The position numbers and the translations under genes were made by a program. Source: Puniceicoccales bacterium Verruco_02 (GTDB lineage Bacteria; Verrucomicrobiota; Verrucomicrobiia; Opitutales; Oceanipulchritudinaceae). From it: DNA of 53,702 bases. This document shows, piece after piece, positions 29,478-46,894 of the stretch; within the stretch, counting starts at the first letter, position 1, and every line of letters begins with the position of its first letter. The DNA lies in NCBI GenBank assembly GCA_001604585.1, contig LVBW01000061.1, positions 1 to 53,702 of the forward strand. The letters are read 5' to 3'. The notes beneath the pieces are model-generated. The model worked only from the letters and a program-made list of their open reading frames with translations, searched no databases and was not told where the DNA came from.

Positions 29478-31421
29478 ATGAAGACAGCTTCTTACTTGGC
29501 CGCTGTTGCCATGCTGGTTATTCCTGTACTGGCCTTTTCCCAAAATACCGCGTTTCTTGTCGAGGCGGAATCCGGTGTTCGTGGTGCCAATATGACCAGC
29601 GCAACCGCTGGTGGTGTCACTTACATAACCCCGAGCGTGAACAGCGCAGGCACAGTGCCTGCCTCTGCTGCCCATGTAGTTACTTACTCCGTCGTGTTCC
29701 CAGCTGCCGGGGACTATGACCTTTACGTGCGTCTCTACGTCGGCACTGCCGGGGCCGATGACGACAGCTTTTTCTACGGCAATGGCTTTGGCAATATGTC
29801 AGTCACTGATTCTGCCTCCTGGGTGATGGTCAACGGCATATACGGGGCAACCGGTTACGCCGCCCAGGACGCTATCATTATCAATGGCGGCATCGAGAAT
29901 GCCAGTGTGTGGAAATGGATAAAGTTGACCCGTGCTGAAGATGTAGGCCCCTTTGTTGTCGATGCTTCCTCGCTTACCAAGACCTTTGTGATAGCCGGGC
30001 GCGAGGATGGCCTTTTGATCGACAAGTTCGCGTTCGCTCTCAAGGGCTTGTATTTCACTGTCAACCAGATTGAGAACGGGCTGGAGGGTTCCACTACTGT
30101 CCCGGTGGAATACGTGCCCGTCGGCCCGGAAATCGCCATCGGCAAGGACAAGTTTCTTGGCTCATGTCATTCAAACAACGATCAGGACAAGTATTTCACG
30201 ACGTACTGGAACGCAGTCATCCCCGGCAACGGCGGCAAGTGGGGCTGGGTGGAGAGAACGCGCAACACCATGACATGGGACGACCTTGACGCTTCCTACC
30301 GGGCGGCCAAGGACAACGGCTACCCATTCTGTATGCATGTTCTAGTATGGGGGTCGCAGCAGCCGACTTGGATGCGCACTCTGGGGGCTTCCAACCAGAT
30401 GATCGAAATCCGCGAATGGTTCCAGGCCGTGGCCGAGCGTTACCCCGACATCGACTATTTGCAGGTGGTCAACGAGCCTATCCACGCCAAGCCCGACGGG
30501 ACCAAGACCGATAGCGGTAGCTACATCGACGCGCTGGGCGGCACCGCAAGCGACGGCACCCATCCTTGGATTGTGAAGGCGTTTGAGTTGGCCAAGGAGT
30601 ATTTCCCGGACACTCCGCTGATGATCAACGAGTACAACATCATCGGCAGCGATTCCAACACCACCGAATACCTCAGCATGATCAACGAGCTAAAGGACAG
30701 GGGGTTGATAGACATCATCGGGGTTCAGGGGCACGCTTTCGAGACCAAGTACTATTCGGTCGAGAACATGAAGCGCAACCTCGACAGGCTGGCGGCCACG
30801 GGGCTTCCCATCATGATTACGGAGATGGACATAGATGGCGACGCTGATGCGCTAGACTCTGTTTCCGATGCCAAGCAGCTTGCCGAAATGCAGAGGATAT
30901 TCCCCATGTTCTGGGATCATCCTTCGGTCATGGGCATAGTTATGTGGGGTTACAGGGTGGGCATGTGGAGAAGCCCAACCGATGCCTTCCTTACCGACGA
31001 TTACAGCTACGAGCGTCCGGCCCTGAAGTGGATGCGCCAGTATGTGCAGAGCGAGCCTTGGCTTGGCTACACAGTCAGCTACAATTGGGCAGACACGGGC
31101 GGCTGGCTCGGCGGCAATGTGTACGTCGGTTACAAGCCTTGGCTATATAGCGAAGGGCATTGGGTGTGGTCGCCGGACGCCTTGGCCAATGACGAGGGTT
31201 CCTGGGGCTTTGTGTTCAACCCCGATGGGGCAGGCTCTTCCGTGGTCGGTGGCAACTGGATGGGCTATGAGGTGAGCGGCGGCTGGGCCGATACGGGCGA
31301 CTGGCTAGGCAAAGTGTACACTGGCTACAAGCCTTGGGTATGGACCGACGTTGGCTGGCTCTACATCGACGATACATATCTTGAAACGAACGGCGCTTGG
31401 GCATGGATGCCCGTTGAGTAG
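29478..31421 (+). CDS. Secreted GH10 endo-1,4-beta-xylanase with aromatic C-terminal repeats
   Basis: The protein has 647 residues from the ATG at 29478, with a signal peptide at residues 1-22 (ending AFSQ). A beta-sandwich-like N-terminal domain (about 25-200, starting FLVEAESG, with FPAAGDYDLYVRLY) resembles CBM6/CBM35-type or carbohydrate-linked domains. The GH10 catalytic barrel spans about 220-520. The acid/base is E333 in VVNEPIH and the nucleophile is E449 in ITEMDID; HVLVWGSQQPTW and VMWGYRVG are further GH10 features. The C-terminal 120 residues (528-647) hold two copies of a Trp/Tyr-rich module (see the repeat entry). The enzyme probably cleaves xylan outside the cell or at its surface. 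An upstream in-frame ATG at 29340 is rejected because it precedes the signal peptide. A terminator follows the gene. Confidence 0.9.
   Translation: MKTASYLAAVAMLVIPVLAFSQNTAFLVEAESGVRGANMTSATAGGVTYITPSVNSAGTVPASAAHVVTYSVVFPAAGDYDLYVRLYVGTAGADDDSFFYGNGFGNMSVTDSASWVMVNGIYGATGYAAQDAIIINGGIENASVWKWIKLTRAEDVGPFVVDASSLTKTFVIAGREDGLLIDKFAFALKGLYFTVNQIENGLEGSTTVPVEYVPVGPEIAIGKDKFLGSCHSNNDQDKYFTTYWNAVIPGNGGKWGWVERTRNTMTWDDLDASYRAAKDNGYPFCMHVLVWGSQQPTWMRTLGASNQMIEIREWFQAVAERYPDIDYLQVVNEPIHAKPDGTKTDSGSYIDALGGTASDGTHPWIVKAFELAKEYFPDTPLMINEYNIIGSDSNTTEYLSMINELKDRGLIDIIGVQGHAFETKYYSVENMKRNLDRLAATGLPIMITEMDIDGDADALDSVSDAKQLAEMQRIFPMFWDHPSVMGIVMWGYRVGMWRSPTDAFLTDDYSYERPALKWMRQYVQSEPWLGYTVSYNWADTGGWLGGNVYVGYKPWLYSEGHWVWSPDALANDEGSWGFVFNPDGAGSSVVGGNWMGYEVSGGWADTGDWLGKVYTGYKPWVWTDVGWLYIDDTYLETNGAWAWMPVE
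31059..31418 (+). repeat. Two copies of a Trp-rich C-terminal module in the xylanase
   Basis: Residues 528-583 and 594-647 of the xylanase align with each other. Both have W-(L/M)-G-Y-x-V, then WADTG-(G/D)-WLG, then Y-(V/T)-GYKPW-(L/V)-(Y/W), G-(H/-)-W-x-(W/Y), and end in a G-(S/A)-W-x-(F/W) turn. The last part also matches the final 40 residues of the choice-of-anchor I protein at 45102-45221 (DEGSW is shared exactly). It is a repeated protein module and not a DNA repeat. Confidence 0.8.
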
Positions 31422-31488
31422 TCCGCAAGAGCAGTCTGGTACGCATATCAATCCAGAGGCCCACTCGCGGGCGCTCCCTTCAAGGATG

Positions 31489-31521
31489 GCCCCGTATATT
31501 TTTTACGGGGCTGTTCTTTTT
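31489..31521 (+). terminator. Rho-independent terminator after the xylanase
   Basis: An 8-bp stem GCCCCGTA/TACGGGGC with a T-rich loop is followed by TGTTCTTTTT. It starts 68 bp after the xylanase stop. Confidence 0.85.
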
Positions 31522-31611
31522 GTCGCGATGGTCGCTGCTCGATAGTTCTTGAGTCCCGGCTTTCTTGTCGTTTTGTATGTTGTTGCGGGAACGTAATAAT
31601 TCGACTTTCAC

Positions 31612-32223
31612 ATGGCGGGGTTCGACGAACAGATTGTCCGCGAGTACTTTGAATTGCAGGGCTTCATGGTCCGGCAATGGAGGAAGTATCAGACCCCGCC
31701 GCGCAAGAAGCTGCCCGAGGAGGAGATAGACCTACTGGTGTTCAATCCCAACTACCTGCGCGCCGGGCGGCAGCCGGGGTTCATGCTCTTTTCCAGCGAG
31801 CTGCCCTATATTCAGCGCGCCGTGGTGGCGGTGCGCGGCTGGCACACCGCACAGTATTTCACCCCGAGGATGATTCAAAATAGCTCCGAGATAGTGAAGT
31901 TTCTCGAACGGGACGTGCTCAAGAGTGCCGAGGAGTTCTTTGGGCCATCGGATGAGTATTTCGGGGCCGAGGCAGGCTCTTTGCACAAGATACTGGTCCT
32001 GCCGGGTCTGCCCACTGCCGAGCCTCACCGCGGGGAGAGCATAGCCCTGTTGCGCGAGAGGGGGGTGGATGCGGTGATTTCTTTCCGTTCCATGCTGGCG
32101 GACATCATTTCGATGGTCGAAATCAACCGCAACTATGCCAAGAGCGACCTGTTGCAGATTATCCGCATCCTGAAGACCTACGACCTTGTCAAGGATCCGC
32201 AGATGAAGCTGTTCGGCGAATAG
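31612..32223 (+). CDS. Conserved-looking soluble protein of unknown function
   Basis: This 203-residue protein has no signal peptide or membrane segment and is rich in charged residues. The N-terminus (DEQIVREYFELQGFMVRQWRK) followed by PEEEIDLLVFNP is reminiscent of the alpha-beta start and acidic strand of PD-(D/E)XK nuclease-like proteins. I cannot find the matching E-x-K, so no function is assigned. A second half (HKILVLPGLP, GVDAVISFRSMLADII) looks like a Rossmann-like alternation, and the C-terminus (LLQIIRILKTYDLVKDPQM) is helical. It stands alone between the xylanase terminator and the convergent STAS gene. Codon use and GC content match the neighbours, which suggests a resident gene. 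Confidence 0.6.
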   Translation: MAGFDEQIVREYFELQGFMVRQWRKYQTPPRKKLPEEEIDLLVFNPNYLRAGRQPGFMLFSSELPYIQRAVVAVRGWHTAQYFTPRMIQNSSEIVKFLERDVLKSAEEFFGPSDEYFGAEAGSLHKILVLPGLPTAEPHRGESIALLRERGVDAVISFRSMLADIISMVEINRNYAKSDLLQIIRILKTYDLVKDPQMKLFGE

Positions 32224-32267
32224 GACAGGGAGTGTTTGGCCTGTTGTGAGTGCATGGGCGAGGAGTA

Positions 32268-33338
32268 TTACAGTTCTGCTCCCTGGCCCTCCGCCGGGGT
32301 AAAGGATAGCAGTTCCTGCATCCCTGCCATGTAGATAACCCGCAGCACCGGGGCGGAGGAGGAGCATACGCGGAACCTGCCTGATGCCGCTTCCAAAAGG
32401 CGGTGGCTCTGGAGCAAGGCCCTAAGGCCCGATGAACTGAGGTATTCTAGGGCGCTTGCGTTCAGGCGTATGTCGCGGCAGCCCTCCTTGACGAGGCGCT
32501 CCACGTTTTCGAGAAAGTCTTTGGCCGTCACTACGTCCAGCCTTCCTTCAAGGCGCAGTTCCGTCCATTCGGGCTTCGGCTCGGCGTCGATACTGATGAC
32601 GCTTGGGGGTAGTATGGACAGTGCGTTGAAGTCCACGGGGTGTACGGAGAGGCGGACTTTGCGGAATGCTGCCATCGCCTGAACGGCCTTGCCGGGCGCG
32701 GCTATGGATACTCCTAGAAGAAGCAGCATGGACGCAATGAGTGTAACAGTCAGAAGGCTGTTATCCCCGTTATAAATTACTTCGTCGAACATGCAGCTAA
32801 GGTTCATCGCTATCCATAGCGCCATCGAGGCGTTTACGAGTGCCTCGGCTCGGTTGGACGAACGCTTGATCGACCACAAGGCTGCGCAAAAAGCCAGCAG
32901 GCCGCCCGCAGCGGCCAAGTGGAAATTGGCCTGCATCCACGATGCGTCCATCGCGAACCATAGCAGAGTGATGGAATAGCCCAGCTTGTCGTCAGCCCCA
33001 GACAGCTTGCCTCTCATGCTGTGCCAAGCCGCGCACAGCATGACAAAGCAGAGTGTCATCACCGTCATCGCAGCTACTTGCGCATGGGCAAAGTCGCTTA
33101 TATCTTCCAATAGCCAGAACAGGTCCATGCCCACCCAGAACATGGCCGCGGCGTTGATTATCCTCTCTGGTCTGTTGGCTGAGAGCGTTATGGAGGTCAG
33201 GCAGCTAAGTATGGTAAATAGCGCAAGCACGAAGGCCGCGTGTGTGTAGCCGAGCGTCCACGCAGCGTCGAATGAGAACCATACCAGTGTGTTGGCAAAA
33301 TCCAGTCTCTGGCTTATTTTGCGAGTGTCGCCTGCCAT
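32268..33338 (-). CDS. Duplicated membrane domain fused to a STAS domain
   Basis: This 356-residue protein joins about eight transmembrane helices (residues 15-215) to a C-terminal STAS domain (about 257-345). The membrane part is an internal tandem duplication with an offset of exactly 107 residues. LVWFSFDAAW (18-27) matches LLWFAMDASW (125-134), and NRPERIINAAAMFWVGMDLFW (55-75) matches NRAEALVNASMALWIAMNLSC (162-182). The STAS domain carries the LEYLSSSGLRALL segment with Ser301-303, where SpoIIAA-like antagonists are phosphorylated. This suggests a membrane sensor that passes a signal to an anti-sigma or PP2C-type partner, although no kinase or phosphatase is adjacent. It is not a SulP transporter, since the membrane part is too short. 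It converges with the 31612 gene and follows the antiporter gene on the same strand. Confidence 0.65.
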   Translation of the reverse strand: MAGDTRKISQRLDFANTLVWFSFDAAWTLGYTHAAFVLALFTILSCLTSITLSANRPERIINAAAMFWVGMDLFWLLEDISDFAHAQVAAMTVMTLCFVMLCAAWHSMRGKLSGADDKLGYSITLLWFAMDASWMQANFHLAAAGGLLAFCAALWSIKRSSNRAEALVNASMALWIAMNLSCMFDEVIYNGDNSLLTVTLIASMLLLLGVSIAAPGKAVQAMAAFRKVRLSVHPVDFNALSILPPSVISIDAEPKPEWTELRLEGRLDVVTAKDFLENVERLVKEGCRDIRLNASALEYLSSSGLRALLQSHRLLEAASGRFRVCSSSAPVLRVIYMAGMQELLSFTPAEGQGAEL

Positions 33339-33471
33339 GTATCAACAAATGGGGAGATGTCTTGGAGAGTATGTGTTTCCAACATCGTATATCAATGGTT
33401 ATCTGTCCATTGTGATTGCAATGGCTTGGTGCCGCCCACCTATAACGGGGGCCAATCGTCTTCTGCCCTTG

Positions 33472-35823
33472 TCAGCGTCTTTCGACGAAGTTGGCCAGTA
33501 GCACCTCGTTGCCCTCGGCCTCTTTGTTGACATGATCGCGGAAGGCTGCGCTGCGGGCGGCATTGCCAACGAACAGGATTAGATCGCCCGATTTGAGTAT
33601 TTCCTCGGCTCCGGGGCTGGTTATCTGCGTGGCTCCGCGCTGTATGCCGATAACACTGATGCCGAAGCGGCTGCGCAGCTCGCTGCCTGAGAGGGTGTTG
33701 CCGTCCAGGCTGCTGCCCGGTGGGAGGAGTATGTGCTCGATTTTGAATGAGCCGTGCGGAGCATTTTCTGAATCAACGCCCAGCTTTTCCTCTAGGATCG
33801 CCGCTGCCCTGTTGTTTGCCTCCTGCGGGCCTAGGAGCACGATGGTGTCGTCGGGAAATAGGTGCTCTTCCGGGCCGGGGTTGAAGACTTCCACACCACC
33901 GCGCGCGAGCGCGATTATCATGCTGCCGCTGCGGGTCGGGATGCTCAGCTCTCGAATCCTTTGGCCTGCGGCGACGCTATTGGAGGGCAGGCGAAGTTCC
34001 TTCACGCAGGCTGGCCAAGGGTAGTCGTGGCGGAGCTTCTCGGCTATGTCGGCGCGGCGTTGCTGGCTGTTATCCGCCTCATCCTCTAGGAAGCTGTCCC
34101 GGAACAGTGCCTCTATTCGGCAGTTGATATGCACCATGTTGCGCCAGAAGAACATGGCTATTCCAAGGACTAGTATGGCAAATAGGGCCAGCGCGGCACC
34201 TTTGGGCAGGAAGGGTGAAGCTACAGACAGGAAAAAGCCCCCGAGGACCAGTAGCAGCAGCAGGGTGGCCAGCAGGTTGACAAGGTTGTTCACCCGGCCC
34301 GAGAGCATGGGGGGGCGTCCTCGCTGCCGGAACAGGGTGTCCGTCACCATGAACACGATGGAGGAGGTGTTGCGTGCGATGGCTATCACGAAGGGCACCG
34401 AGAGCACCGCCGTACACACCCACACGGCAAGGCCCCATAGCAGGGGGTCTGGTAGATCCATCCGGGCAACCCAGCGTGCGGTGAAGGCTCCGCCAAGTAT
34501 TATGCCGCTTATGAGAAAGAAGTAGAAGCTTATCTGGAGCATGGGGCGGCGCACAAGGCGCAGGAGCCTGTTGCGTCCGATGACGCTGAGGGCCGTGTCG
34601 AGATAGCTGCGGTAGAACCTGCCAAGGCGTACGCTATGCCGGGGCATGTGCGTGGCCAGCCAGTTGAACTGCGTTGTGGATGTGGCGCTTAGGTAAGGGG
34701 TGAGCAGTATGCTGACAAGGGCCACGCCGAAGGCTATGGAGGTGAGCCTGTCGTCGGTTACGCCCAGTTGTTGCCCGAGGGCTGCGATGATGAAGCTGAA
34801 CTCGCCAATCTGTGCCTTGGCTACAGAGGCCCGGTAGCTGCTGCCGCTTGGCTGGCCAGAGAGAAAAAGGCCGATGAAGCAGCTTGCCACTTTGCCCACT
34901 ATCATCATGGCGCTAATAAGGAGCACCCAGCCGATGTTCGATGCTACAAGCAGGGGGTCTATCTGAAGGCCGATGGTTACAAAGAACACCGCGCTGAACA
35001 GGTCGCGGATGCTGCGGTTGTTGTCCAGCACGGTGTGGACAAGGCGGGTGCGGGAGAGTATGGCCCCGGCCACGAAGGCACCCAGAGCCTCCGAAAAGTG
35101 CATTTCCAAGGCCAGCGCACCGATGCCCAGCGCCAGCCCGACCGAGGCCACCGTAAGCCCTTCGCGTTTGTCTCCGCCTTCGGCTAGTTCCAGTGCCTTT
35201 GGGGCAAAGATGCGGCCGGCGAAGAATATGCCGATTACAAACACGCCCATCAGGAAGGAGACCAGCCACACGCTGTGCCAGTCGAAATTCTTGGTAACGG
35301 CCACGCCGCTCAGTATCACGAGCAGGAGCACCGCCAGCACGTCCTCGAGTATCAGCACGCCCACGGCGAGCTGTGCGTGCGGGAACTTGTCCCTTTTCTG
35401 CTCTTGCAGGACGCGCATTGTCACCATTGAGGAGCTGATGGCCAAAAGGCTGCCAAAGAACAGGCCGCTTACCTGATTCCAGCCCAGTAGCGGGCTTAAA
35501 AGGCGCGCCAGGTATAGCATCGCTATTGTCTGCGCCGCCACGGCCAGTAGCGCCGGGGCCATGACGCGGCGCAGGCGGGCAAGGTCGAATTCCATGCCGA
35601 TGAAAAAGAGTAGGAACAGCACTCCGAGCTGCGAAATCTGCCGTATGCTTTCGGCGTCGGAGAGCAGGGGCGCGGGCAGTATGCCGGGGCCAAGCAGCAG
35701 GCCCACGCTCAGGTAGGCGAAAATGACGGGCAGGCGCAGGCGGCGGAAAATGGCGGATGCTATGGCCGCGCCAGCAACGACAATGCCAAGGTCATGGATG
35801 AGGCTGGCCTCGTGGGAGGGCAT
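33472..35823 (-). CDS. Monovalent cation:proton antiporter (CPA2/KefB-like) with two RCK_C domains
   Basis: This 783-residue membrane protein has a CPA2-type antiporter domain in its first 400 residues, with the characteristic GLLLGPGILP near residue 41, FLLFFIGMEFDLARLRR near 70, the VGVLILEDVLAVLLL Asp pair region and VAKAQIGEFSFIIAALG. A second group of helices lies between about 425 and 575. The soluble C-terminus has two TrkA_C/RCK_C-type ligand domains, about 606-690 and 694-775. The NAD-binding RCK_N (TrkA_N) domain that KefB/KefC carry is absent. It probably exchanges K+ or Na+ for protons with regulation by a ligand bound to the RCK_C pair. It lies 57 bp downstream of the metallophosphoesterase gene and upstream of the STAS gene. 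Confidence 0.88.
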   Translation of the reverse strand: MPSHEASLIHDLGIVVAGAAIASAIFRRLRLPVIFAYLSVGLLLGPGILPAPLLSDAESIRQISQLGVLFLLFFIGMEFDLARLRRVMAPALLAVAAQTIAMLYLARLLSPLLGWNQVSGLFFGSLLAISSSMVTMRVLQEQKRDKFPHAQLAVGVLILEDVLAVLLLVILSGVAVTKNFDWHSVWLVSFLMGVFVIGIFFAGRIFAPKALELAEGGDKREGLTVASVGLALGIGALALEMHFSEALGAFVAGAILSRTRLVHTVLDNNRSIRDLFSAVFFVTIGLQIDPLLVASNIGWVLLISAMMIVGKVASCFIGLFLSGQPSGSSYRASVAKAQIGEFSFIIAALGQQLGVTDDRLTSIAFGVALVSILLTPYLSATSTTQFNWLATHMPRHSVRLGRFYRSYLDTALSVIGRNRLLRLVRRPMLQISFYFFLISGIILGGAFTARWVARMDLPDPLLWGLAVWVCTAVLSVPFVIAIARNTSSIVFMVTDTLFRQRGRPPMLSGRVNNLVNLLATLLLLLVLGGFFLSVASPFLPKGAALALFAILVLGIAMFFWRNMVHINCRIEALFRDSFLEDEADNSQQRRADIAEKLRHDYPWPACVKELRLPSNSVAAGQRIRELSIPTRSGSMIIALARGGVEVFNPGPEEHLFPDDTIVLLGPQEANNRAAAILEEKLGVDSENAPHGSFKIEHILLPPGSSLDGNTLSGSELRSRFGISVIGIQRGATQITSPGAEEILKSGDLILFVGNAARSAAFRDHVNKEAEGNEVLLANFVERR

Positions 35824-35880
35824 GGGTCAAACATTGGCAGTCTTGCGGCGATTTGCAAGATGCAGTGGGTCTGTCAGGAG

Positions 35881-37029
35881 CTACTCAATTATTTCTGCCG
35901 CTTTCTCGCCCTTGCTTGCCGGGTCGAGTTTGAAGCTGAAACGGTCGCTGGCATCGTTGCGCCATGCTTGCTGCTGGGTTGCGGGCGATATGCCGAACAA
36001 GGGGGAGAAGGTGCGCACGCTGACTGTCCTGCCGTCGGGGTGGAACTCGAGTATGCGCAGCCAGCAGTCGCCCCCGTTGCCGAACCAGCCCCCGCCAAGG
36101 GCCTGTGCGTTGAAGGCCATCTGGCTGATGCTGCGCCCTGCGGCGTTGGTGTCGGTGCGAAAGCCGATGTGGCCCAGAGGGTCTTCGGGCAGCGCGATGT
36201 GGCCGCTTATGACCATCTCGATGTTCTTCGAGGGCTGGACAAGCTTCTCGAATACAGCCCGGCCGTAGTTGCGGTCCTCGATTTTGTAGCCCTCGGTGAC
36301 GATGTGCTCGTTCTGGGCGTTGAGGTATGAATGGGTCAGCAGGATGATGGTGTGGTTGGCGAAGTTTGGGTCTGCAGCCACGTATTTGCCCCATTCAAGG
36401 GCGGAGTCTCTTGGGGCGAATTCCAGCACGAGCACAAGGAACTTGCGCCCCTGCGGGGAAACGAACTCGTAGGCGGCGTTGGTGAGGCTGGGGCGCCCAT
36501 TTGCGTTGCTTCCTGCACGTCGCAACATGGCCTGTGTAAGGTGGTTGCGCTCTGGCGGGAAGAACTCGTCAAGGCGGGTGTGGCGGTCTTCCACGCTTCT
36601 GATGCCGAAGTCGTGGTTGCCCGCCGTGACTATGTATGGCACGCGTCCGTCCAGCCTCTCAAAGGCGCGCGACACGGCCTTCCACTGCTGGGGGCCGGTC
36701 TGGTCGGCGTTCTGGCCGTCGGGGTCGAGCATGTCGTTCTGCTCCACCATGTCTCCGGTGCAGAGGACCAGTTTGATGTTAAGGTTCTTGCTGTTATCGG
36801 CAATCCAAGCTGTCATCAGTTCCAGAAGAGGTTGGTTGCGTGCATACTTGACGTAGGTCTGCGTGTCCGGGACGAGTATGATGGACCAGGAGCCATTTTC
36901 TTCCAACGCGGGAGCGATGAAGCCTGGCGCGTCGATGCCTGTGCGAATGGCGGAGAGCGGCACTGCGGCTGTCAGGCAGAGCGTCGCGGCGGTGGCGAGG
37001 ATATTGCGAAGGGAGCGGAGCGCGTTCAT
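35881..37029 (-). CDS. Secreted calcineurin-like metallophosphoesterase
   Basis: The 382-residue protein has a signal peptide (about 1-27, LTAAVPLSA) and the two-metal phosphoesterase motifs in order: PDTQ (first Asp), CTGDMVEQN, AGNHDFG, LLTHSYLN and SGHIALPED. The final motif is G-H-I where G-H-x-H is common. This arrangement is typical of exported metallophosphoesterases found in Planctomycetes and Verrucomicrobia. The natural substrate (phosphodiester, nucleotide or phospholipid head group) is unknown. A perfect 16-bp palindrome lies 66 bp upstream of the start and may control it. It precedes the antiporter gene by 57 bp. Confidence 0.87.
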   Translation of the reverse strand: MNALRSLRNILATAATLCLTAAVPLSAIRTGIDAPGFIAPALEENGSWSIILVPDTQTYVKYARNQPLLELMTAWIADNSKNLNIKLVLCTGDMVEQNDMLDPDGQNADQTGPQQWKAVSRAFERLDGRVPYIVTAGNHDFGIRSVEDRHTRLDEFFPPERNHLTQAMLRRAGSNANGRPSLTNAAYEFVSPQGRKFLVLVLEFAPRDSALEWGKYVAADPNFANHTIILLTHSYLNAQNEHIVTEGYKIEDRNYGRAVFEKLVQPSKNIEMVISGHIALPEDPLGHIGFRTDTNAAGRSISQMAFNAQALGGGWFGNGGDCWLRILEFHPDGRTVSVRTFSPLFGISPATQQQAWRNDASDRFSFKLDPASKGEKAAEIIE

Positions 37030-37094
37030 CGGCAGGAATGGCGGTTGGGCGTGGATGTGTAGATTAGCTGCCGCTACAAACGCAGCAAGCGCGG

Positions 37095-37110
37095 GCCTGT
37101 CATGACAGGC
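37095..37110. promoter_or_regulatory. Perfect 16-bp palindrome upstream of the metallophosphoesterase gene
   Basis: GCCTGTCATGACAGGC is a perfect palindrome in the 190-bp gap between the mutarotase stop and the metallophosphoesterase start, 66 bp from that start. It has no T-tract, so an operator is more likely than a terminator. No regulator is known. Confidence 0.4.
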
Positions 37111-37219
37111 AGAAAGTGATTCAATGGAGGGCAGCTCGGGCGTGCCAACAGTTAATTTTCCCTGCTCTTATCGGTCGTGAAACATGGGCCGGGAGTCGGT
37201 CTATTGACTATGTAGGCGC

Positions 37220-38110
37220 CTAAAGCTTCGTAATCGCGATTTCCGCGCTCAGGTGATGCGTCGTGTTCGGGCGCAGGGGCACGGCCACATCCGGGATGTT
37301 GGCGTTCTCAACGCATATGAACTGCGGCCACTGCTCGCCTATGTCGGCTTGCTTGGCCGCCGTGCTTTCCCAAGGGTTCCAAACCACGGTGGAGGCCGCG
37401 CCGCTACTGCTAATGTCTATCGCGCGGCCCCATTGCTCGTCTACGATGCGGACGGGCCTTGCGCAGTAGAACATGTTGGCCGCTTCGCCCTTCATAACGA
37501 CTGGTCCAGCTCCGTGGCTGTGGCGCTTACCGTCCCCGGCAAATTCCAGATATTCGGTATTCTCCAGCCCCTCCACGCGCACGTTGCGCACATCGCTGAC
37601 GGCATAATAGGTATGCATCGCTTCGGACAAGAGGAAGCTGTCCGCCCCCGTGTTGCGGATGGATAGCTCCATGCGCAGGCTTTTGCCAGCCGTGACTACG
37701 AAGCTCGCAACGGCGTCGTGGTTCCAGCCCGAGGCGCAGTCCTTGGGCAGGGATAGCTCGAAGCTAGCCCGCAGAGTGCCATCGTCCAGTGTTTCCACGC
37801 GCAACAGTTCCCAGAGCTTTGTGCGCACAAGGCCGTGCATCGGCGCGGTGGCCGCTGTGCGGTGCGGGCCAAACCACGGCGCGCAAAGGGGCACGCCGCC
37901 GCGTATGGGCTTGCCGCCCGCGCTGCCAGTCCGGCGCGAGAGCCAGAGCAGGGGGCGGCTGGAGGGTGAGGATGGTTCGGAAATGAACGAGAGTATGGTG
38001 GCTCCGTGAAGGGCGATTTCGGCGCGGCTGTGCGGGGATTCGAGCACAAGGACGGGGCCGAAGTTATCGCGTTCAGCTACATGGGCGCAGTCGGGAAGAA
38101 TGGGATACAT
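37220..38110 (-). CDS. D-hexose-6-phosphate mutarotase (YeaD-like)
   Basis: This 296-residue protein belongs to the galactose mutarotase-like superfamily and would interconvert anomers of glucose-6-phosphate. Recognisable parts are LHGATILSFI, the substrate-binding GGVPLCAPWFGPH (about 71-83), MHGLVRTKLWELL with the catalytic His, LSEAMHTYYAVSDV, and the catalytic Glu in CVENANI near the C-terminus. It is a soluble cytoplasmic enzyme. It follows gatB by 61 bp on the same strand and may be co-transcribed, but there is no functional link to tRNA amidation. Confidence 0.92.
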   Translation of the reverse strand: MYPILPDCAHVAERDNFGPVLVLESPHSRAEIALHGATILSFISEPSSPSSRPLLWLSRRTGSAGGKPIRGGVPLCAPWFGPHRTAATAPMHGLVRTKLWELLRVETLDDGTLRASFELSLPKDCASGWNHDAVASFVVTAGKSLRMELSIRNTGADSFLLSEAMHTYYAVSDVRNVRVEGLENTEYLEFAGDGKRHSHGAGPVVMKGEAANMFYCARPVRIVDEQWGRAIDISSSGAASTVVWNPWESTAAKQADIGEQWPQFICVENANIPDVAVPLRPNTTHHLSAEIAITKL

Positions 38111-38171
38111 GGTGTTGATTGGGGCAAGTGGTTTGGCAAGTGAAGTGGGCTATGTGTGCCGCGGCGTTGTT

Positions 38172-39644
38172 TCAGCCCAGGATCAACCTGCGCAGGATTT
38201 CGTCCACCATCTTGGCGTCGGCCTTGCCCTTGCTCGCCTTCATGATTGGTCCTTTGAGGGCGTTTATGGCCTTTTCGTTGCCAGCGCGCACTTTCTCCAC
38301 CGTGGCAGGGTCGGCCTCGATTGCGGCGCGGGCCATTGCCTCAAGCTCTCCGCTGTCGTTCTGCGCCTTAAGGCCCTTGCGTTCGACAAGGGCCGCGGGC
38401 ATCTCGCCGCTTTCAAAGATCTCGTGGAAAATGTCGCGGGCTATCTGCTTTGTAATCACGCCCTCGTCGCTGAGCTTCTGCAACTGTGCGATGTGCGCGG
38501 GCGTCATTTTGCACTCGCCGATGGGCCGGGCACTAGCTTCGTCAGTCGCCGTGGCGGCAAGCTCGCGGCGCAGGTCGTTGACTATCAAATTGGCAAGCTC
38601 AGCGGGCTTGTTGTAAATGTCCACCGCTTCCTCGAAGTAGCGGCACATGGCAAGATCGCCAATGAGCGCGCTGGCGCTCGAATAGGGCAGGCCCATTTTC
38701 TCCATGTAGCGGTGCTGGCGGTCGAAGGGCAGCTCGATGAGCTTTGCGCGAAGCTCGTCCTTCCAAGCCTCGCTTACGCGAACGGGCATGAGGTCCGGGT
38801 CGGGGAAATAGCGGTAGTCGTGGCTGTCCTCCTTGCTGCGCATCGAATAGCCGTAGCCCTGCTCGGCGTCCCAGCGGCGCGTTTCCTGCACAATCTCGTG
38901 CCCTCGGCCCGCCTCGTACAGCTCTATCTGACGGCGCGCTTCCCACTCGATGCAGGCCTTGATGTTCGAGGCGCTGTTCAGGTTCTTGCTCTCTGTGCGG
39001 GTGTTGAAATGCTTCTGCCCCATGGGGCGGACGGACACATTCGCATCGGCGCGCATCTGCCCCTTTTCCATGTCGCAGTCGGACACTCCCGCCTGACTTA
39101 GCGCCATGCGCAAGGCATTGACAAAAGCGGCCGCCTCGTCGGAGCTGCGGAAGACAGGCTCGGTCACGATCTCTGCCAGCGAGGTGCCCGTGCGGTTGTC
39201 GTCAATCAGGGAGAACTGGCCCTCGTGGTTCATCTTGGCCGGATCTTCCTCTAGGTGAATGCGCGTGAGGGCGAACTTCTTGTGCTCGCCCATCACGTTG
39301 CGGCTCTCTGCGGGCAGTTCCACCTCCACCTCTCCGCCAAGGCAGAGGGGCTGGTCGTACTGGGAAATCTGGTAGTTCTTGGGCGAGTCCGGGTACCAGT
39401 AGTTCTTGCGGTCCCACTTGCACTCTTTGGCGATGTCGCAGCCGAACATCAGGCCCATCGTTATCATCTTGTCGATGGCTTCCTTGTTAATGACTGGCAG
39501 CGCGCCGGGAAGGCCCAGCACGACGGGGTCGCAAAGCGTGTTCGGTTCCGCTCCATAGACGTAGGGCGAGGGGGCGAACACCTTCGAGCGGGTCTTGAGC
39601 TGGACGTGGACTTCGAGGCCGATGATGACTTCGTAGGAGGACAT
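38172..39644 (-). CDS. gatB: Asp-tRNA(Asn)/Glu-tRNA(Gln) amidotransferase subunit B
   Basis: GatB is the tRNA-binding and kinase subunit of the GatCAB complex that converts Glu-tRNA(Gln) or Asp-tRNA(Asn) to the amide. From the ATG at 39644 the protein has 490 residues and begins YEVIIGLEVHVQLKT. Family segments include LGLPGALPVINK, RKNYWYPDSPKNYQISQYD, HLEEDPAK, IDDNRTGTSLAEIVTEP, CDMEKGQMRADANVS, and the SKEDSHDYRYFPDPDL stretch. The C-terminal YqeY-like tail ends LVDEILRRLI-like. An in-frame ATG at 39665 adds seven residues and is less likely. gatA and gatC are not in the window, so the complex is encoded in pieces. Confidence 0.97.
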   Translation of the reverse strand: MSSYEVIIGLEVHVQLKTRSKVFAPSPYVYGAEPNTLCDPVVLGLPGALPVINKEAIDKMITMGLMFGCDIAKECKWDRKNYWYPDSPKNYQISQYDQPLCLGGEVEVELPAESRNVMGEHKKFALTRIHLEEDPAKMNHEGQFSLIDDNRTGTSLAEIVTEPVFRSSDEAAAFVNALRMALSQAGVSDCDMEKGQMRADANVSVRPMGQKHFNTRTESKNLNSASNIKACIEWEARRQIELYEAGRGHEIVQETRRWDAEQGYGYSMRSKEDSHDYRYFPDPDLMPVRVSEAWKDELRAKLIELPFDRQHRYMEKMGLPYSSASALIGDLAMCRYFEEAVDIYNKPAELANLIVNDLRRELAATATDEASARPIGECKMTPAHIAQLQKLSDEGVITKQIARDIFHEIFESGEMPAALVERKGLKAQNDSGELEAMARAAIEADPATVEKVRAGNEKAINALKGPIMKASKGKADAKMVDEILRRLILG

Positions 39645-39697
39645 GGATGGGCTAGAGCTTAGCAATACGCGGGCGGATTTCCAGACAAACGCCGTAC

Positions 39698-41389
39698 TTA
39701 CTTCGCATTTGCTTTCTGGCCATTCTCTGTTTGCCCGGAGGCGCCAAGGATTTCCCCTTCAAGAGCTGAAACAGCCTGTTTGAACGCCTTAGAAGCACCG
39801 CTTTTTTTCAGGTTGCGGAGGATCTCCAAAGCCAGCTCGGCGGACTTGTCGCTGTCGCCGCCTGCCAGTAGGCGCGCCGCTTCAAGCGCCACGCTGCGCT
39901 GTCCGCAGTCCATGTTCTCCGCTTTGGCCATCCAGTCTAGGCTGAGTTCTGCGCCAGTCTTGTCGCCTGCTGCTAGTTGCATTTGGGCTAGCTTTAGCGA
40001 GATTGCGTAGCCGGGCCTGCGCTCGTGCAGGTGCCGGGCCAGTCTAAGAGCGTCTTCGGCGCGCCCAGCCTTTTCAAGAGCGATTATCGCACGGATTTCT
40101 TCGTAAGTGTTCCCATCCTGCGTGGAGCTGGGTACGGGCACTGGGGTGCCGGGGCGCGTGAAGGGGCGGTAGAGCGGGTCGCCAATCACTATGCCCTGCC
40201 AGCTCAGGGCGGGCATGGCACACCAAGCGGCATCGCCAAAGCTCCAGCCAGAGAGCAGGGCTTGGCCGATGATGGAAAAGTCGTGCGTGAGGGCTAGCGT
40301 GGGTTCGTAAACATTGCCCACCGTGCCCGCTGCGCCTCGCTCCACAAGGGCGCTGCTCCAGAGTCTGCTGTCCTTCAGGCTGGAGGCCGAGAAGCTGTGC
40401 AGGTGCATGGCTATCGCGCCGGGGGGCAGGCTCATGCCAGGCTCCAGGAAGGCCCCGTTGACGTAATGTGTGTACCAGCCAAAGTACAGGGCCGGGGCGT
40501 CGAAGCGGGCATGGGCGGGGAAGGTTGCCTTGTCCTCATCAAGGTCCAGATCCCAGTTCGTAGCCCTGAACATGGCTGCAAGCTTGTCCAACCACTGCTC
40601 TGCCTGTGGGTAAGGGCCGCCCTTGTCGATGTAAACACGCCCGTGCAGGCCCTTGCGCTCGCCCTCGAGCGCGCTGTCCACGAGCTTTCGCGCCGCTTCG
40701 TAACTGCTGCCTCCGAGGCGTGCGGTGCGGATTATGCCCGCCATGTCCAGAAGCTCTGGGGAGATCTTGCGGTAGAGTGGGTTGGGGACAAAGCCGGTCA
40801 AGGGGTTCTGCGGGGCGGGCAGGGCGGCTAGTTCGCTGTCCACACTGGCGAAGTTCTTTTTCAGAAGGGCGTTTATATTGGCCCCCTTGCCGTCCGGCGA
40901 GCCAAGTATCTTTGCAAAGCCCGCCGTGGCCTCCGCTGTATTCAGCGCGGGGTCTTCGGCGATGCGCAGGGGCACTCCTTGGCATATTACGAGCCAGCCA
41001 ATGCGGTGAGTACCGATTCCGGCTTCCTTCCCTGTCTGCGGGGCATTGTGACTTACCCAACTGTTGGCGCGTAGCCATTCAACGAGTGGGCCGCGTATCT
41101 CCATGTCGAAGAGCAGGCGGCTGATTGTTTCCTCGCTGCTCATGTGCAGGGAGATGATGTTCTTTGGCGGTATGCCGCGCTTTTCCGCGTAGTAGTTTGC
41201 CAGTTCGAGCGATTGAGCTTCGTTCGCATTGGCCAGAATGAGCACCTCAAGGGGGCTTGCCTGCCGGGGCGCTGGCGGGATTGCGGACGCAGCAGGGGCG
41301 GGATTATTCGCGTTTATCTCGGCGGCAATGCTGCCGGCTGCTAGGGCGAATAGGCCCGCAATGGCCATGAGTATTTGCGTTGCCCTCAT
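39698..41389 (-). CDS. TIGR03790-like secreted protein
   Basis: This 563-residue protein has a signal peptide (about 1-23, ending SIAAEIN) and then matches what I know of the TIGR03790 family. Examples are VLILANANEAQSLELANYYAEKRGIPPKNIISLHM near the start and AGTVGNVYEPTLALTHDF with WQGIVIGDPLYRPF in the second half. The last 140 residues (IIALEKAGRAEDALRLARHL onward) look like TPR-type helices. The family is found in Verrucomicrobia, Planctomycetes and some proteobacteria, and has no known function. It lies 9 bp after the N-acetylmuramoyl amidase gene on the same strand, suggesting co-translation and perhaps a role at the envelope. Confidence 0.82.
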   Translation of the reverse strand: MRATQILMAIAGLFALAAGSIAAEINANNPAPAASAIPPAPRQASPLEVLILANANEAQSLELANYYAEKRGIPPKNIISLHMSSEETISRLLFDMEIRGPLVEWLRANSWVSHNAPQTGKEAGIGTHRIGWLVICQGVPLRIAEDPALNTAEATAGFAKILGSPDGKGANINALLKKNFASVDSELAALPAPQNPLTGFVPNPLYRKISPELLDMAGIIRTARLGGSSYEAARKLVDSALEGERKGLHGRVYIDKGGPYPQAEQWLDKLAAMFRATNWDLDLDEDKATFPAHARFDAPALYFGWYTHYVNGAFLEPGMSLPPGAIAMHLHSFSASSLKDSRLWSSALVERGAAGTVGNVYEPTLALTHDFSIIGQALLSGWSFGDAAWCAMPALSWQGIVIGDPLYRPFTRPGTPVPVPSSTQDGNTYEEIRAIIALEKAGRAEDALRLARHLHERRPGYAISLKLAQMQLAAGDKTGAELSLDWMAKAENMDCGQRSVALEAARLLAGGDSDKSAELALEILRNLKKSGASKAFKQAVSALEGEILGASGQTENGQKANAK

Positions 41390-41398
41390 GACTATGCC

Positions 41399-42418
41399 CT
41401 ATCGGCCCTTTGTCGCTTCGGCCCGTTTCTTTTCATCCTGCACCCGCTTCATGGTGCGGGCGTAGGCGTCCACTGCATCGGCAATGCATGTGGCCAGTTT
41501 CTGCCTGTGGGCAGAGCTGCCGATCGTGGCCCCTTCGCTGGCATTGCTTACAAAGCCTCCTTCAACGAGCACTCCGGGGCAGTTCAAGTCCCGCAGGACG
41601 GCGAAGCGCGCGCGCTTGAGGCCACGGTCTGGCGAGCCGAGCTTTTCGGCCATCTGCTTTTGCACGTAGTAGCCAAGGAGCATGTTCCACTCGTCCCAGT
41701 CGTTGCCTGGCTGCTTGGCGTTGTCTTTGTAGGATGCTCCCGAGGTGGCGACTTGCCCGGCTGGCACGAGGATGAAAGTTTCCACGCCGCGGACGCTGGC
41801 CGTTGGGCTGGCGTTGAAGTGCAGGCTGATGAACAGGTCGGCTTTCAGGGCGTTGGATTTTTTTGGACGGTCGGCAAGTTCGATGAAATCGTCCTTTTCG
41901 CGGGTTAGGAACACTTTGTAGCCGCGCTTTTCGAGGATGGGCTTGAGCGTTTTGGCAAGGCTTAGAGTGAGGTTCTTTTCCTTGAGCTTGAGGGCGTTGT
42001 TCTCGGCCCCGTTGTCCTTGCCTCCGTGGCCGGGGTCGAGGACTATGCGCAGGCTGCCTTTGGGCGGGGCGAGCTGCTGGGGCAGGAGCAGGGGCTTGAT
42101 GGTCTTGTGGTAGTCGTTGTCGGATATATACAAGGTGCCGTGCCTCTTGATCACAGCCTTGGAGAAGTGGACAACTATGCCGTTTATGGTGCAGCTTCGC
42201 TGACTTTCCTTGAGGACTATGCTGCTACCCTGACCGGAGAGGGTGATTTCCAGCTTTTCGCCCGGAGTGCGGCTTTCCGCCTTCATGCCAAGTAGTGTCG
42301 CAAGGCGGGATGCTGAGTGGTACTGAGCCTGCGCCTCTTCCGCAGCTAGGCGCTGTGGCATGGTTCCCAGCATTGCGGACAGGATTAACAGTAGCGTGCT
42401 CCAAGCTGGGATTTTCAT
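41399..42418 (-). CDS. N-acetylmuramoyl-L-alanine amidase (Amidase_3)
   Basis: From the ATG at 42418 this is a 339-residue exported enzyme with a signal peptide (MKIPAWSTLLLILSAMLG...). A small N-terminal domain of about 110 residues is followed by the amidase_3 catalytic domain (about residues 115-325). The zinc ligands and catalytic Glu are visible: LDPGHGGKDNGA, KEKNLTLSLAK, LFISLHFNA and LVEGGFVSNASEG. It cleaves the amide between N-acetylmuramic acid and L-alanine in peptidoglycan, as needed for cell separation or turnover. The long reading from 42463 would precede the signal peptide and run into the infC terminator, so it is rejected. The TIGR03790-like gene follows 9 bp later. Confidence 0.92.
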   Translation of the reverse strand: MKIPAWSTLLLILSAMLGTMPQRLAAEEAQAQYHSASRLATLLGMKAESRTPGEKLEITLSGQGSSIVLKESQRSCTINGIVVHFSKAVIKRHGTLYISDNDYHKTIKPLLLPQQLAPPKGSLRIVLDPGHGGKDNGAENNALKLKEKNLTLSLAKTLKPILEKRGYKVFLTREKDDFIELADRPKKSNALKADLFISLHFNASPTASVRGVETFILVPAGQVATSGASYKDNAKQPGNDWDEWNMLLGYYVQKQMAEKLGSPDRGLKRARFAVLRDLNCPGVLVEGGFVSNASEGATIGSSAHRQKLATCIADAVDAYARTMKRVQDEKKRAEATKGR

Positions 42419-42460
42419 TGGGCAAATGGCTGGGAATTGTGGAAGGCCCGGAGGGCACAG

Positions 42461-42493
42461 CAAAACTCCCGGCCTTCGCTAGCCGGAGTTTTG
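42461..42493 (-). terminator. Terminator hairpin after infC
   Basis: The stem CAAAACTCCCGGC/GCCGGAGTTTTG (12-13 bp with one bulged base) surrounds a short CTTCGCTA loop. It lies about 80 bp after the infC stop on the minus strand. The U-run is within the 3' arm (GTTTTG). It separates infC from the amidase gene. Confidence 0.7.
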
Positions 42494-42573
42494 GGAAATC
42501 TGTTAACGCGGTATTGTCTTCGCCGGAGGCATGTTGCCTGTCTAGGCTCCTGCCCCGGCGCTTGCGACGAATT

Positions 42574-43218
42574 CTAGTCCTCGTCGCCCTCGTCGGCATC
42601 GTTGGAATCATCGGGCGAGTCTTCGCGGTCGGCAATGTCGGCCTCGTTGTACTTCAGCTTGCGCTTGGCCTGAGGCAGGGGCGACATCGAGAAAGTTGCA
42701 ATTCGGCCGGAAACTCTCGGGGAGGTGTCGGCGCTGCCCACATGGTTCAGGTCTTCGATCACCCTCATGAGCAGTTCCACGCCCAGCTCCTTGTGCTCGT
42801 TTTCGCGGCCGCGATACATGAGCGTCACCTTGAGCTTGTTGCCCTTGTAGAGGAACTCCTCGCCGCGGCGCACCTTGGTCATGTAGTCGTGCTGCTCTGT
42901 GCGGACGCGGAACTTGATCTCCTTGATTTTGGAGCTGCTGTTGCTCTTTTCCTTATTCTTCTTGGACAGCTCGTACATGTACTTTCCAAAGTCTAGTATG
43001 CGACATACCGGTGGCTTGGCAGTAGCGGCGATTTCCACTAGATCCAGCCCATACTGGCGGGCTAGGATCAGGGCCTGATCCCTGTCCATGATTCCGAGCT
43101 GCTTGCCTTCGGGGTCGATCACGCGAATCTCCCTTGCACGGATACGGTCGTTCTTGCGGATGTAATTGTTACCAGGCGCGCCTCTGTTCTGGCCGCCTGA
43201 GCGTGGGTAATTAGGCAT
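42574..43218 (-). CDS. infC: Translation initiation factor IF-3
   Basis: IF-3 binds the 30S subunit, prevents premature subunit joining and checks the initiator tRNA. The 214-residue protein has the standard N-domain (YIRKNDRIRAREIRVIDPEGKQLGIM, DLVEIAATAKPPVCRILDFGKYMYE), a Lys-rich linker, and the C-domain (KEIKFRVRTEQHDYMTKVRRGEEFLYKGNKLKVTLMYRGRE). An unusual acidic tail follows (about residues 190-214, many Asp/Glu/Ser). A normal ATG at 43218 is used, not the rare ATT seen in E. coli. rpmI and rplT, which usually follow infC, are absent; a terminator and the amidase gene follow instead. It is divergent from the choice-of-anchor gene. Confidence 0.96.
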   Translation of the reverse strand: MPNYPRSGGQNRGAPGNNYIRKNDRIRAREIRVIDPEGKQLGIMDRDQALILARQYGLDLVEIAATAKPPVCRILDFGKYMYELSKKNKEKSNSSSKIKEIKFRVRTEQHDYMTKVRRGEEFLYKGNKLKVTLMYRGRENEHKELGVELLMRVIEDLNHVGSADTSPRVSGRIATFSMSPLPQAKRKLKYNEADIADREDSPDDSNDADEGDED

Positions 43219-43472
43219 CTAGTTGAGTCTTGTTTGTTTGGAGCAACAATATGAGTCGCGGCTCCGTCCTTGGTTCCCGGAGCTTGAGAATGCTTATAGG
43301 TGATGCGTTCGTGCCTTTCAATGCCTTTCTCCGAATAGCGGACTATCTGTGATGCTTGTTCGCCGCTTGTCATAGTGAGGGCAGTTCCGTGTTTGTAACA
43401 GCTATGTCTCTGGCGTGTCGTTTTTCCGTCACAGTGGCTGTACATGATGGGCCGCCTAACCCAAGTACCACT

Positions 43473-45224
43473 ATGTCTGTTCTACGCCCTATGACTGTTT
43501 CCGCGCTGGCCCTTGCCGGGCTTTGCGCCCTTGCCACTGCGCAAGAGGCTCCCTTCCCCGGCTCCGGCTATTCTGCCGACAAGCTGCCCAAGCCCATTGG
43601 CTCGCTAAGTGAGCTGTCCAGCTACAAGGCTCTGAGTGCCGAGATTATTTCCATAGATCCGTCAACGGGCTTTCTGCTTTCCACGGCCAATACTCAGGTT
43701 GAGTTTGTCAATATCTCCAACCCTGCTTCTCCCGTATGGGAGGCCACATATGGCTTTGCAGGGGTCTTCGACGCTCCCAACTCTGTTGGCAATGTCAGCA
43801 GCGTGGCTGCCGATCCGCTTGGCAGAGGCTTTGCCGCGGCGGCCCTCATTGGTACAGATGACACTGGTGCGCCCGGCAAGCTGGTGCTTTTCGACACCTC
43901 AACTGGTGCCGTTCTCAACGCTTTCGACGCGGGTTACCATCCCGACTGCGTGGCATTCTCCCACGACGGTCGCTATGTGGTGACAGCCAACGAGGGCGAG
44001 TGGAACAGCAGCGCCCAGACGATGGGTTCAGTGAGCGTTCTGGACCTTGGCGAGGGGGCAGGCAAGGCAGGGCTAAGCTCACTTACCCAGCAGAGCGTGA
44101 TGACGGTGGACTTTTCTGAGGCAAACCTTGCCGAGGGGGTCAGCTTGGCCGGTCTTCGCGTAAGCGACCCCTCCGAAGGGCTTCCCCTTGGCCTTGAGCC
44201 GGAGTACGTGTGCAGCCTCGGCGGCAAGGTGTATTGCAGCATTCAGGAAGCAAGCGCCATCGGAGTGTTGGATATAGATAGCGGCAAGTGGGAGCAGATT
44301 ATACGTATGCCCTACCTCTATCAGGTAATAGACGCCTCCGACAAGGACGGCATCAAGATTGACGACAGCGTCGTTGTCGGGATGCCAATGCCGGACACGA
44401 TCGACTGCTTCGAGCACGAGGGCAAAGTTTACATCGTCACGGCCAACGAGGGAGACTTCAACCCCAACGACAATGACAAGGCCCGCGTGGCCGACCTTGG
44501 CACGGGTAAGTATCCAGCCCTTGCCCCCGCCTATCTTGCCGAGCTGAACGCTCTTTACGGAGGCAACGCCCTAGCAAACAGCGCCCTTGGCCGCCTGAAC
44601 GTGTCCATAATCGACGGACTCAACGCCAGTGGCGAAATAGAGCTTCTTCACGTTCCGGGCACGCGCAGCTTTTCGATAATAGACGCAGGCACAGGTGAAA
44701 TGGTATGGGACAGCGGCAGCGACTTTGAAATCATAACTTCGCTTATCGACTCGGCAGGGTATCAGGATGGACGCTCCGACGACAAGGGGCCGGAGCCGGA
44801 AGGCATCACGGTGTTTGAGATGGCCAACGAGCGTTACGCGGCCATCGTCATGGAGCGCACCTACGCGGTGTTTCTCTACAACATCAGCGATCCTCTGGCC
44901 CCCCGCTTCGTTGATTACTTCCGCGGCCCTTCCACTCACACGGAGCCCGAATGTGTGCGCTTTCTTTCTCCCGCGCAGAGTCCTGACGGCAAGGCAAAGC
45001 TGATTGTCGGCTACGAAGCCAGTGCGACTATCAGCATTCTGGACCTAGCCACTTGGCAAGGCTTTCCGCGCAACCCTTCCCAGCCCAATGTGGATACGCT
45101 GGGCTGGATGGGCCTTATGTATGTGGACTCCGACTGGGCCTACAGCTGGGTGCTGGGCACATGGTTCTACATGCCTGATGCCTTCGGCAGCGACGAGGGA
45201 AGCTGGTCCTACATGATGAAGTAG
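43473..45224 (+). CDS. Choice-of-anchor I family secreted protein with an aromatic C-terminal module
   Basis: From the ATG at 43473 this is a 583-residue protein with a signal peptide (about 1-24, ending LATAQEAP). The body is a beta-propeller-like protein of the choice-of-anchor I family, named for its varied C-terminal attachment signals. Evidence is the repeated VTANEGEW/VTANEGDFN motifs (two similar segments about 145 residues apart), DAGYHPDCVAFSHDGRYV, and PEPEGITVFEMANERYAAIVMERT. The last 40 residues (544-583) are an aromatic module ending DEGSWSYMMK that matches the xylanase tail. No LPxTG, PEP-CTERM or Por-type signal is present. The family is surface or extracellular; activity is unproven. 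A longer upstream reading from 43356 precedes the signal peptide and is not used. Confidence 0.8.
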   Translation: MSVLRPMTVSALALAGLCALATAQEAPFPGSGYSADKLPKPIGSLSELSSYKALSAEIISIDPSTGFLLSTANTQVEFVNISNPASPVWEATYGFAGVFDAPNSVGNVSSVAADPLGRGFAAAALIGTDDTGAPGKLVLFDTSTGAVLNAFDAGYHPDCVAFSHDGRYVVTANEGEWNSSAQTMGSVSVLDLGEGAGKAGLSSLTQQSVMTVDFSEANLAEGVSLAGLRVSDPSEGLPLGLEPEYVCSLGGKVYCSIQEASAIGVLDIDSGKWEQIIRMPYLYQVIDASDKDGIKIDDSVVVGMPMPDTIDCFEHEGKVYIVTANEGDFNPNDNDKARVADLGTGKYPALAPAYLAELNALYGGNALANSALGRLNVSIIDGLNASGEIELLHVPGTRSFSIIDAGTGEMVWDSGSDFEIITSLIDSAGYQDGRSDDKGPEPEGITVFEMANERYAAIVMERTYAVFLYNISDPLAPRFVDYFRGPSTHTEPECVRFLSPAQSPDGKAKLIVGYEASATISILDLATWQGFPRNPSQPNVDTLGWMGLMYVDSDWAYSWVLGTWFYMPDAFGSDEGSWSYMMK

Positions 45225-46766: not shown

Positions 46767-46894
46767 GGTTTGATGAGGTTGTCCGGAGTTCGTGCAAGGA
46801 ACGCGGAAGAGTTGTGTTTGAGATGGGAGCTTTACCTTGATAATATTGCTGGACTGACGTTGAGCAATGAGAATCATGGAATATCGAACAATTG

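Follow-up and report, generated by a model that had tools for sequence, protein, structure and literature searches.

The choline-binding repeats are a works-like model of non-covalent surface retention through aromatic pockets: they are short aromatic beta-hairpins that act as autonomous folding units, are used in tandem and are carried by diverse cargo (PMC4929436). In the corresponding Pfam family, CW_binding_1 (PF01473; e.g. pneumococcal LytA), such hairpins are often C-terminal as well as tandem, and stand on diverse secreted proteins. Two other described systems bear comparison: the carbohydrate-binding modules (CBMs) of xylanases from glycoside hydrolase family 10 (GH10) are likewise aromatic-rich ancillary domains beside a glycoside hydrolase, and the PEP-CTERM signal likewise occupies the C-terminus of many unrelated secreted proteins per genome. 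Here we describe an aromatic module of ~55 residues, found in a 53,702-nt contig of Puniceicoccales bacterium Verruco_02 (LVBW01000061.1; analysed at full length and called the window below), where two copies (A and B) end a secreted GH10 xylanase and one (C) ends a secreted choice-of-anchor I protein. The host belongs to the Opitutales, which degrade polysaccharides in marine and saline environments and many of whose secreted enzymes have C-terminal regions without database annotation.

Sequence and distribution of the module

The three copies are present where the original prediction had placed them, except that the family profile shifts the start of copy C 48 bases upstream (45054 vs 45102). 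The DEGSW motif reported as identical in two copies is shared by copy A of the xylanase and copy C. Copies A and B are in tandem with a period of 198 bases, and the profile places the end of copy B at 31412 or 31418. When pairwise alignments were compared with 5000 shuffles, none reached the score of A-B (z 13.7) or of A-C (z 10.1), and two reached that of B-C (z 5.5); by this comparison the copies are homologous, well above the shuffled controls. The family profile detected no further copies in the window. Because copies A, B and C are among the 39 rows of that profile, independent matches in other genomes are stronger evidence than the E-values of the three copies in the whole genome (Table 1).

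In outline the module reads W-x-G-(Y/F)...(V/A)DTGxWLG...PW(V/I)(Y/W)...W(I/L)Y...G(A/S)W-x-(Y/F/W). The aligned modules give the consensus W-x-G-x(6-10)-(V/A)-D-T-G-(D/E)-(W/F)-(L/M)-G-x-(L/V)-(Y/H)-V-x(3)-P-W-(V/I)-(Y/W)-x(4-7)-W-(I/L)-Y-x(8-12)-G-(A/S)-W-x-(Y/F/W), which is followed by a few residues and then a stop. Tryptophan makes up 10.6% of the module vs 2.6% of the remainder of the same proteins, and lysine plus arginine 2.9% vs 5.8%, with a module net charge of about -5.5.

Neither Pfam nor NCBIfam held a plausible model for the window tails or for the 39 aligned modules, and PHROGs gave no match for the xylanase tail. No CBM profile in Pfam matched the window proteins or the 39 modules, and none of the latter matched PF01473 at E<=1. 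An earlier description of the module tail was not found in the literature (open-access papers only). Within the libraries and papers searched, the module is thus an undescribed family. C-terminal aromatic binding modules are known as a kind; what is new to us is this family, its use throughout the clade and the way it interchanges with PEP-CTERM (see below).

With a profile built from the three copies, 16 of the 17 genomes of the window's family were positive, the richest having 34 matches, and the sole genome without a match is 80% complete. In a sample of the order, the 39-row profile matched 40 of 372 genomes at E<=0.001. The strong matches were nearly confined to the window's family, plus one genome of another family (G076), and most others were near threshold. 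A phylum-wide draw gave matches in 6 of 387 genomes, four from the window's family and two near threshold. A relatedness scan, for which an 8-row subset of the profile was used, returned 11 loci. Named records in which the module was seen are Opitutales or Verrucomicrobia metagenome-assembled genomes, including Puniceicoccaceae bacterium 5H. The window's own genome (G000) is module-poor. Restriction of the module to the xylanase and the choice-of-anchor I protein, an outcome that the original prediction had counted against itself, holds for the strict module in this genome and fails across the family. The wider pattern that it anticipated, in which many secreted proteins share a usually C-terminal module but have N-terminal domains of unrelated kinds, is what the family genomes contain.

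Table 1. Window proteins, module copies and the neighbouring convergent gene
Feature	Position	Strand	Details
Secreted GH10 xylanase, 647 aa	29478..31421	+	PF00331 E 2e-55; start 29478; layout: signal peptide MKTASYLAAVAMLVIPVLAFSQ, N-terminal region, GH10, two module copies
Module copy A WLGYTVSYNWADTGGWLGGNVYVGYKPWLYSEGHWVWSPDALANDEGSWGFVF	31059..31217	+	Family profile, E 1.4e-16 in whole genome
Module copy B WMGYEVSGGWADTGDWLGKVYTGYKPWVWTDVGWLYIDDTYLETNGAWAWMPVE	31257..31418	+	Stop directly after; family profile, E 5.6e-18 in whole genome
Secreted choice-of-anchor I protein	43473..45224	+	PF22494 E 2e-51; probable start ATG 43473; signal peptide MSVLRPMTVSALALAGLCALATAQ
Module copy C WQGFPRNPSQPNVDTLGWMGLMYVDSDWAYSWVLGTWFYMPDAFGSDEGSWSYMMK	45054..45221	+	Stop directly after; family profile, E 8.5e-17 in whole genome
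Gene beside the choice-of-anchor I gene, convergent; 481-aa protein	45432..46877	-	Classical PEP-CTERM end VPEPAEVAGLAGLAVLFVALRRRKIK

Protein contexts and the PEP-CTERM system

To describe architecture we used 102 distinct module-bearing open reading frames from targeted stretches, a set biased towards the better-scoring matches in a small number of genomes, with paralogues included and a C-terminal seed. The distance from the module to the protein end was <=9 residues in 92 of the 102 and <=15 in 94, and 22 proteins had two copies. In the eight proteins where the module is internal or near the N-terminus (one of them, L160 at 595, a weak match of 15 bits), it can lie close to the N-terminus and be followed by other domains (L123, L144) or can separate a CotH-containing region from a C-terminal one (L143, L145). 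Two small secreted proteins, L110:868-1176 (115 aa) and L142:552-1043 (168 aa), carry one or two modules each and are nearly signal peptide and module alone; such proteins are possibly ligand competitors or matrix proteins. A signal-peptide heuristic was positive in 82 of the 102, and several of the others are truncated or have a visible, atypical signal. The last residue is variable (R 25, P 14, K 12, Q 10, D 9 and others). A fixed basic C-terminal residue was ruled out as a signal feature, with K or R last in only 37 of 92.

Recognised partner domains came from 45 Pfam families and include GH16 (8), GH10 (6), GH26, GH95, pectate lyase, sugar dehydrogenase, multihaem cytochromes, CotH and choice-of-anchor I; many further module proteins are secreted, ~300 aa long and without a recognised catalytic domain. 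Multihaem (CxxCH) cytochromes with a C-terminal module were seen at L081:3561-5171, L095 and L023, and their domain order suggests that they are surface-held electron carriers. All GH10 orthologues found in the window's family keep one or two modules. Four GH10 homologues outside the family are without it and have other C-terminal regions. The module occurs at the C-terminus, internally, near the N-terminus, in tandem and nearly on its own; judged by this range of settings, it is an autonomous domain and not an obligate C-terminal signal.

The relation to PEP-CTERM is clearest in the choice-of-anchor I proteins, an identity confirmed for the window's protein by NF038117 (308.2 bits, above the curated cut-off of 300). 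In the window's genus (G000, G014) the tail is the module, and in two genomes of the same family (G015, G016) a PEP-CTERM stands at the module's position; elsewhere in the order, four more of these proteins end in PEP-CTERM. In this one orthologue set, the module interchanges with PEP-CTERM. The original prediction had noted that there is no LPxTG or PEP-CTERM tail, which the sequences of both window proteins bear out, and that the module sits where an anchoring signal would be. The latter is upheld by the shared site in the G015 and G016 orthologues; a strict C-terminal signal is not supported, given the tandem copies, the near stand-alone proteins and the 8 of 102 with the module elsewhere. 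In the window itself, a module end and a PEP-CTERM end adjoin on convergent genes.

One genome of the window's genus (G013, 94% complete) has modules and no match to PF07589 (PEP-CTERM) or PF09721 (exosortase); it has apparently lost the exosortase system. Its congeners carry about 20 PEP-CTERM proteins each. A second genome (G012) combines 22 module matches with a single weak PEP-CTERM, and the window's own has 19 PEP-CTERM matches and one exosortase. Over the 17 family genomes, module and PEP-CTERM counts neither tracked one another nor were anticorrelated (Spearman 0.28, p 0.28). G013, G012 and the untracked counts together indicate that the module does not depend on the exosortase system. 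A PEP motif was found in no module protein, within the searched part of the last 45 residues. Unlike PEP-CTERM, then, the module is without PEP motif, transmembrane helix or basic cluster, can be internal or tandem, and occurs where exosortase is undetected.

A longer aromatic tail in the Opitutales

The similar aromatic tails that the original prediction mentioned for other Opitutae proteins do exist, as a longer tail of ~85-90 residues that has no name and the pattern WFG..PWIYH..LGWLY..LGWLWT..YPYLY..WLYY. It is absent from the window. In the window's own genome it ends at least four further secreted proteins (contigs C17, C22 with two tandem genes, and C40; loci L069, L070 and L072) with the pattern PWLYH..LGWVY..GWVYT..YPYVY..WLY. 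One of these resembles a Lamin Tail Domain protein. A profile of the longer tail, run against a sample of 223 genomes of the order, matched 57 from at least nine families, mostly at the extreme C-terminus and typically 1-16 residues before the stop. Neither of two examples scanned matched Pfam or NCBIfam.

Profile-profile comparison of the module with the first repeat of the longer tail gave a probability of 94 and E 1.5e-7 over 37 columns, a score that compositional similarity could inflate. On this evidence the two are likely, not proven, to be related. They have the common core W(L/F)G-x(6-8)-PW(I/V)Y-x(5-7)-W(L/I)Y; the longer tail, unlike the module, adds WLWT, YPYLY and WLYY repeats and a conserved histidine, and these repeats were not found after the core in the module alignments. 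Their ranges also differ: the longer tail is widespread in the order, whereas the 55-residue module is hardly found outside one family.

Predicted fold and likely role

An AlphaFold2 model of copy B (17 sequences) had a mean pLDDT (the program's confidence score) of 75, with short strands around the aromatic pairs. The pattern recurred when the double tail was modelled, with pLDDT about 57-80 over copy B; the model was poor over copy A, where all alignment rows had fallen on copy B. From this moderate-confidence model we infer that the module folds as hairpins. The reading we prefer, at about even confidence, is that the module retains secreted proteins non-covalently on the producer's own cell surface or matrix. 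As a small, autonomous, aromatic-rich beta-hairpin binding domain, it would accompany cargo that is exported by Sec and then released across the outer membrane. Exposed side chains of Trp and Tyr would then engage a ligand, most likely a glycan, on the producer's surface or in the extracellular matrix and hold the cargo there with no covalent bond, with greater avidity where copies are in tandem. A glycan as ligand, and the cell's own surface rather than a food polymer as target, are likewise inferred.

The choline-binding repeats would be a model for such retention in manner only. Their consensus TGWb(K,Q)DNGSWYYLN (~20 aa) is absent from the module, and their ligand, the choline of Gram-positive teichoic acid, would not apply to the module's host. 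Several observations weigh against surface retention. A fold search of the PDB (Foldseek, VIA-align) with the predicted structure gave no match. The only PDB sequence match was a putative endo-beta-N-acetylglucosaminidase chain (7pl5) at a non-significant E of 0.23, whose alignment runs through W..W-(F/Y)-Y repeats; to us these look like the cell-wall-binding type, by analogy and not membership. Several choice-of-anchor I homologues stop at the propeller, which shows that such proteins can do without a tail. Among the recognised partners, no class is larger than the glycoside hydrolases, as would suit a substrate-binding module too.

This last point leads to the possibility, which we consider unlikely, that the module is CBM-like and aims enzymes at external food polysaccharide with no retention on the cell. 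The GH16, GH10, GH26, GH95 and pectate lyase partners fit such targeting, as does an aromatic-rich module that, like CBMs, is sometimes tandem or internal. However, the module matches no CBM family in Pfam and also stands on proteins that are not carbohydrate-active. Its carriers include multihaem cytochromes, sugar dehydrogenases and choice-of-anchor I proteins, besides the many ~300-aa secreted proteins in which no catalytic domain is recognised. Because several partners are not polysaccharide-active, retention is favoured over substrate targeting. In the choice-of-anchor I orthologues the module swaps with a sorting signal, and its conservation within one bacterial family, whatever the specificity of the enzyme, suggests a common ligand.

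Position at the extreme C-terminus, interchange with PEP-CTERM and highly varied cargo would also suit a signal for secretion or sorting that a dedicated translocon or sorting enzyme reads and perhaps cleaves off, in the manner of type IX C-terminal domains and PEP-CTERM. We think this improbable: internal, near N-terminal, tandem and nearly stand-alone modules do not suit such a signal, and the module end has no invariant processing motif, transmembrane helix or basic cluster, and no constant last residue. Taken as a whole, the observations suit an autonomous binding domain better than a processed signal. The acidic, lysine- and arginine-poor composition raises a further explanation, that the module is a structural cap or oligomerisation domain which stabilises secreted proteins in saline, alkaline habitats and has no surface ligand. 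In keeping with it, several named module records are Opitutales metagenome-assembled genomes, some with sample codes that we take to denote soda-lake sediment. Yet the xylanase homologues found in sister families manage without the module, an anchor signal can take its place, and the near stand-alone copies leave nothing to stabilise; we regard a role as cap as very doubtful. Surface retention or matrix binding by the module, as the original prediction had proposed, is a plausible reading of these architectures.

More tentatively, and at less than even confidence, the module and the longer tail may be the two branches of a superfamily, as yet undescribed, which would provide the Opitutales with an exosortase-independent, non-covalent surface display. 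It would be used beside exosortase, would be able to replace it, and would serve enzymes, cytochromes and structural proteins through one conserved surface ligand. If the retention reading is true, the module could serve as a compact aromatic tag in surface display, and its presence would help to assign a large set of hypothetical proteins to a probable location. The enzymes that stay on the cell could be recognised by it, and their location decides whether the products are kept or shared.

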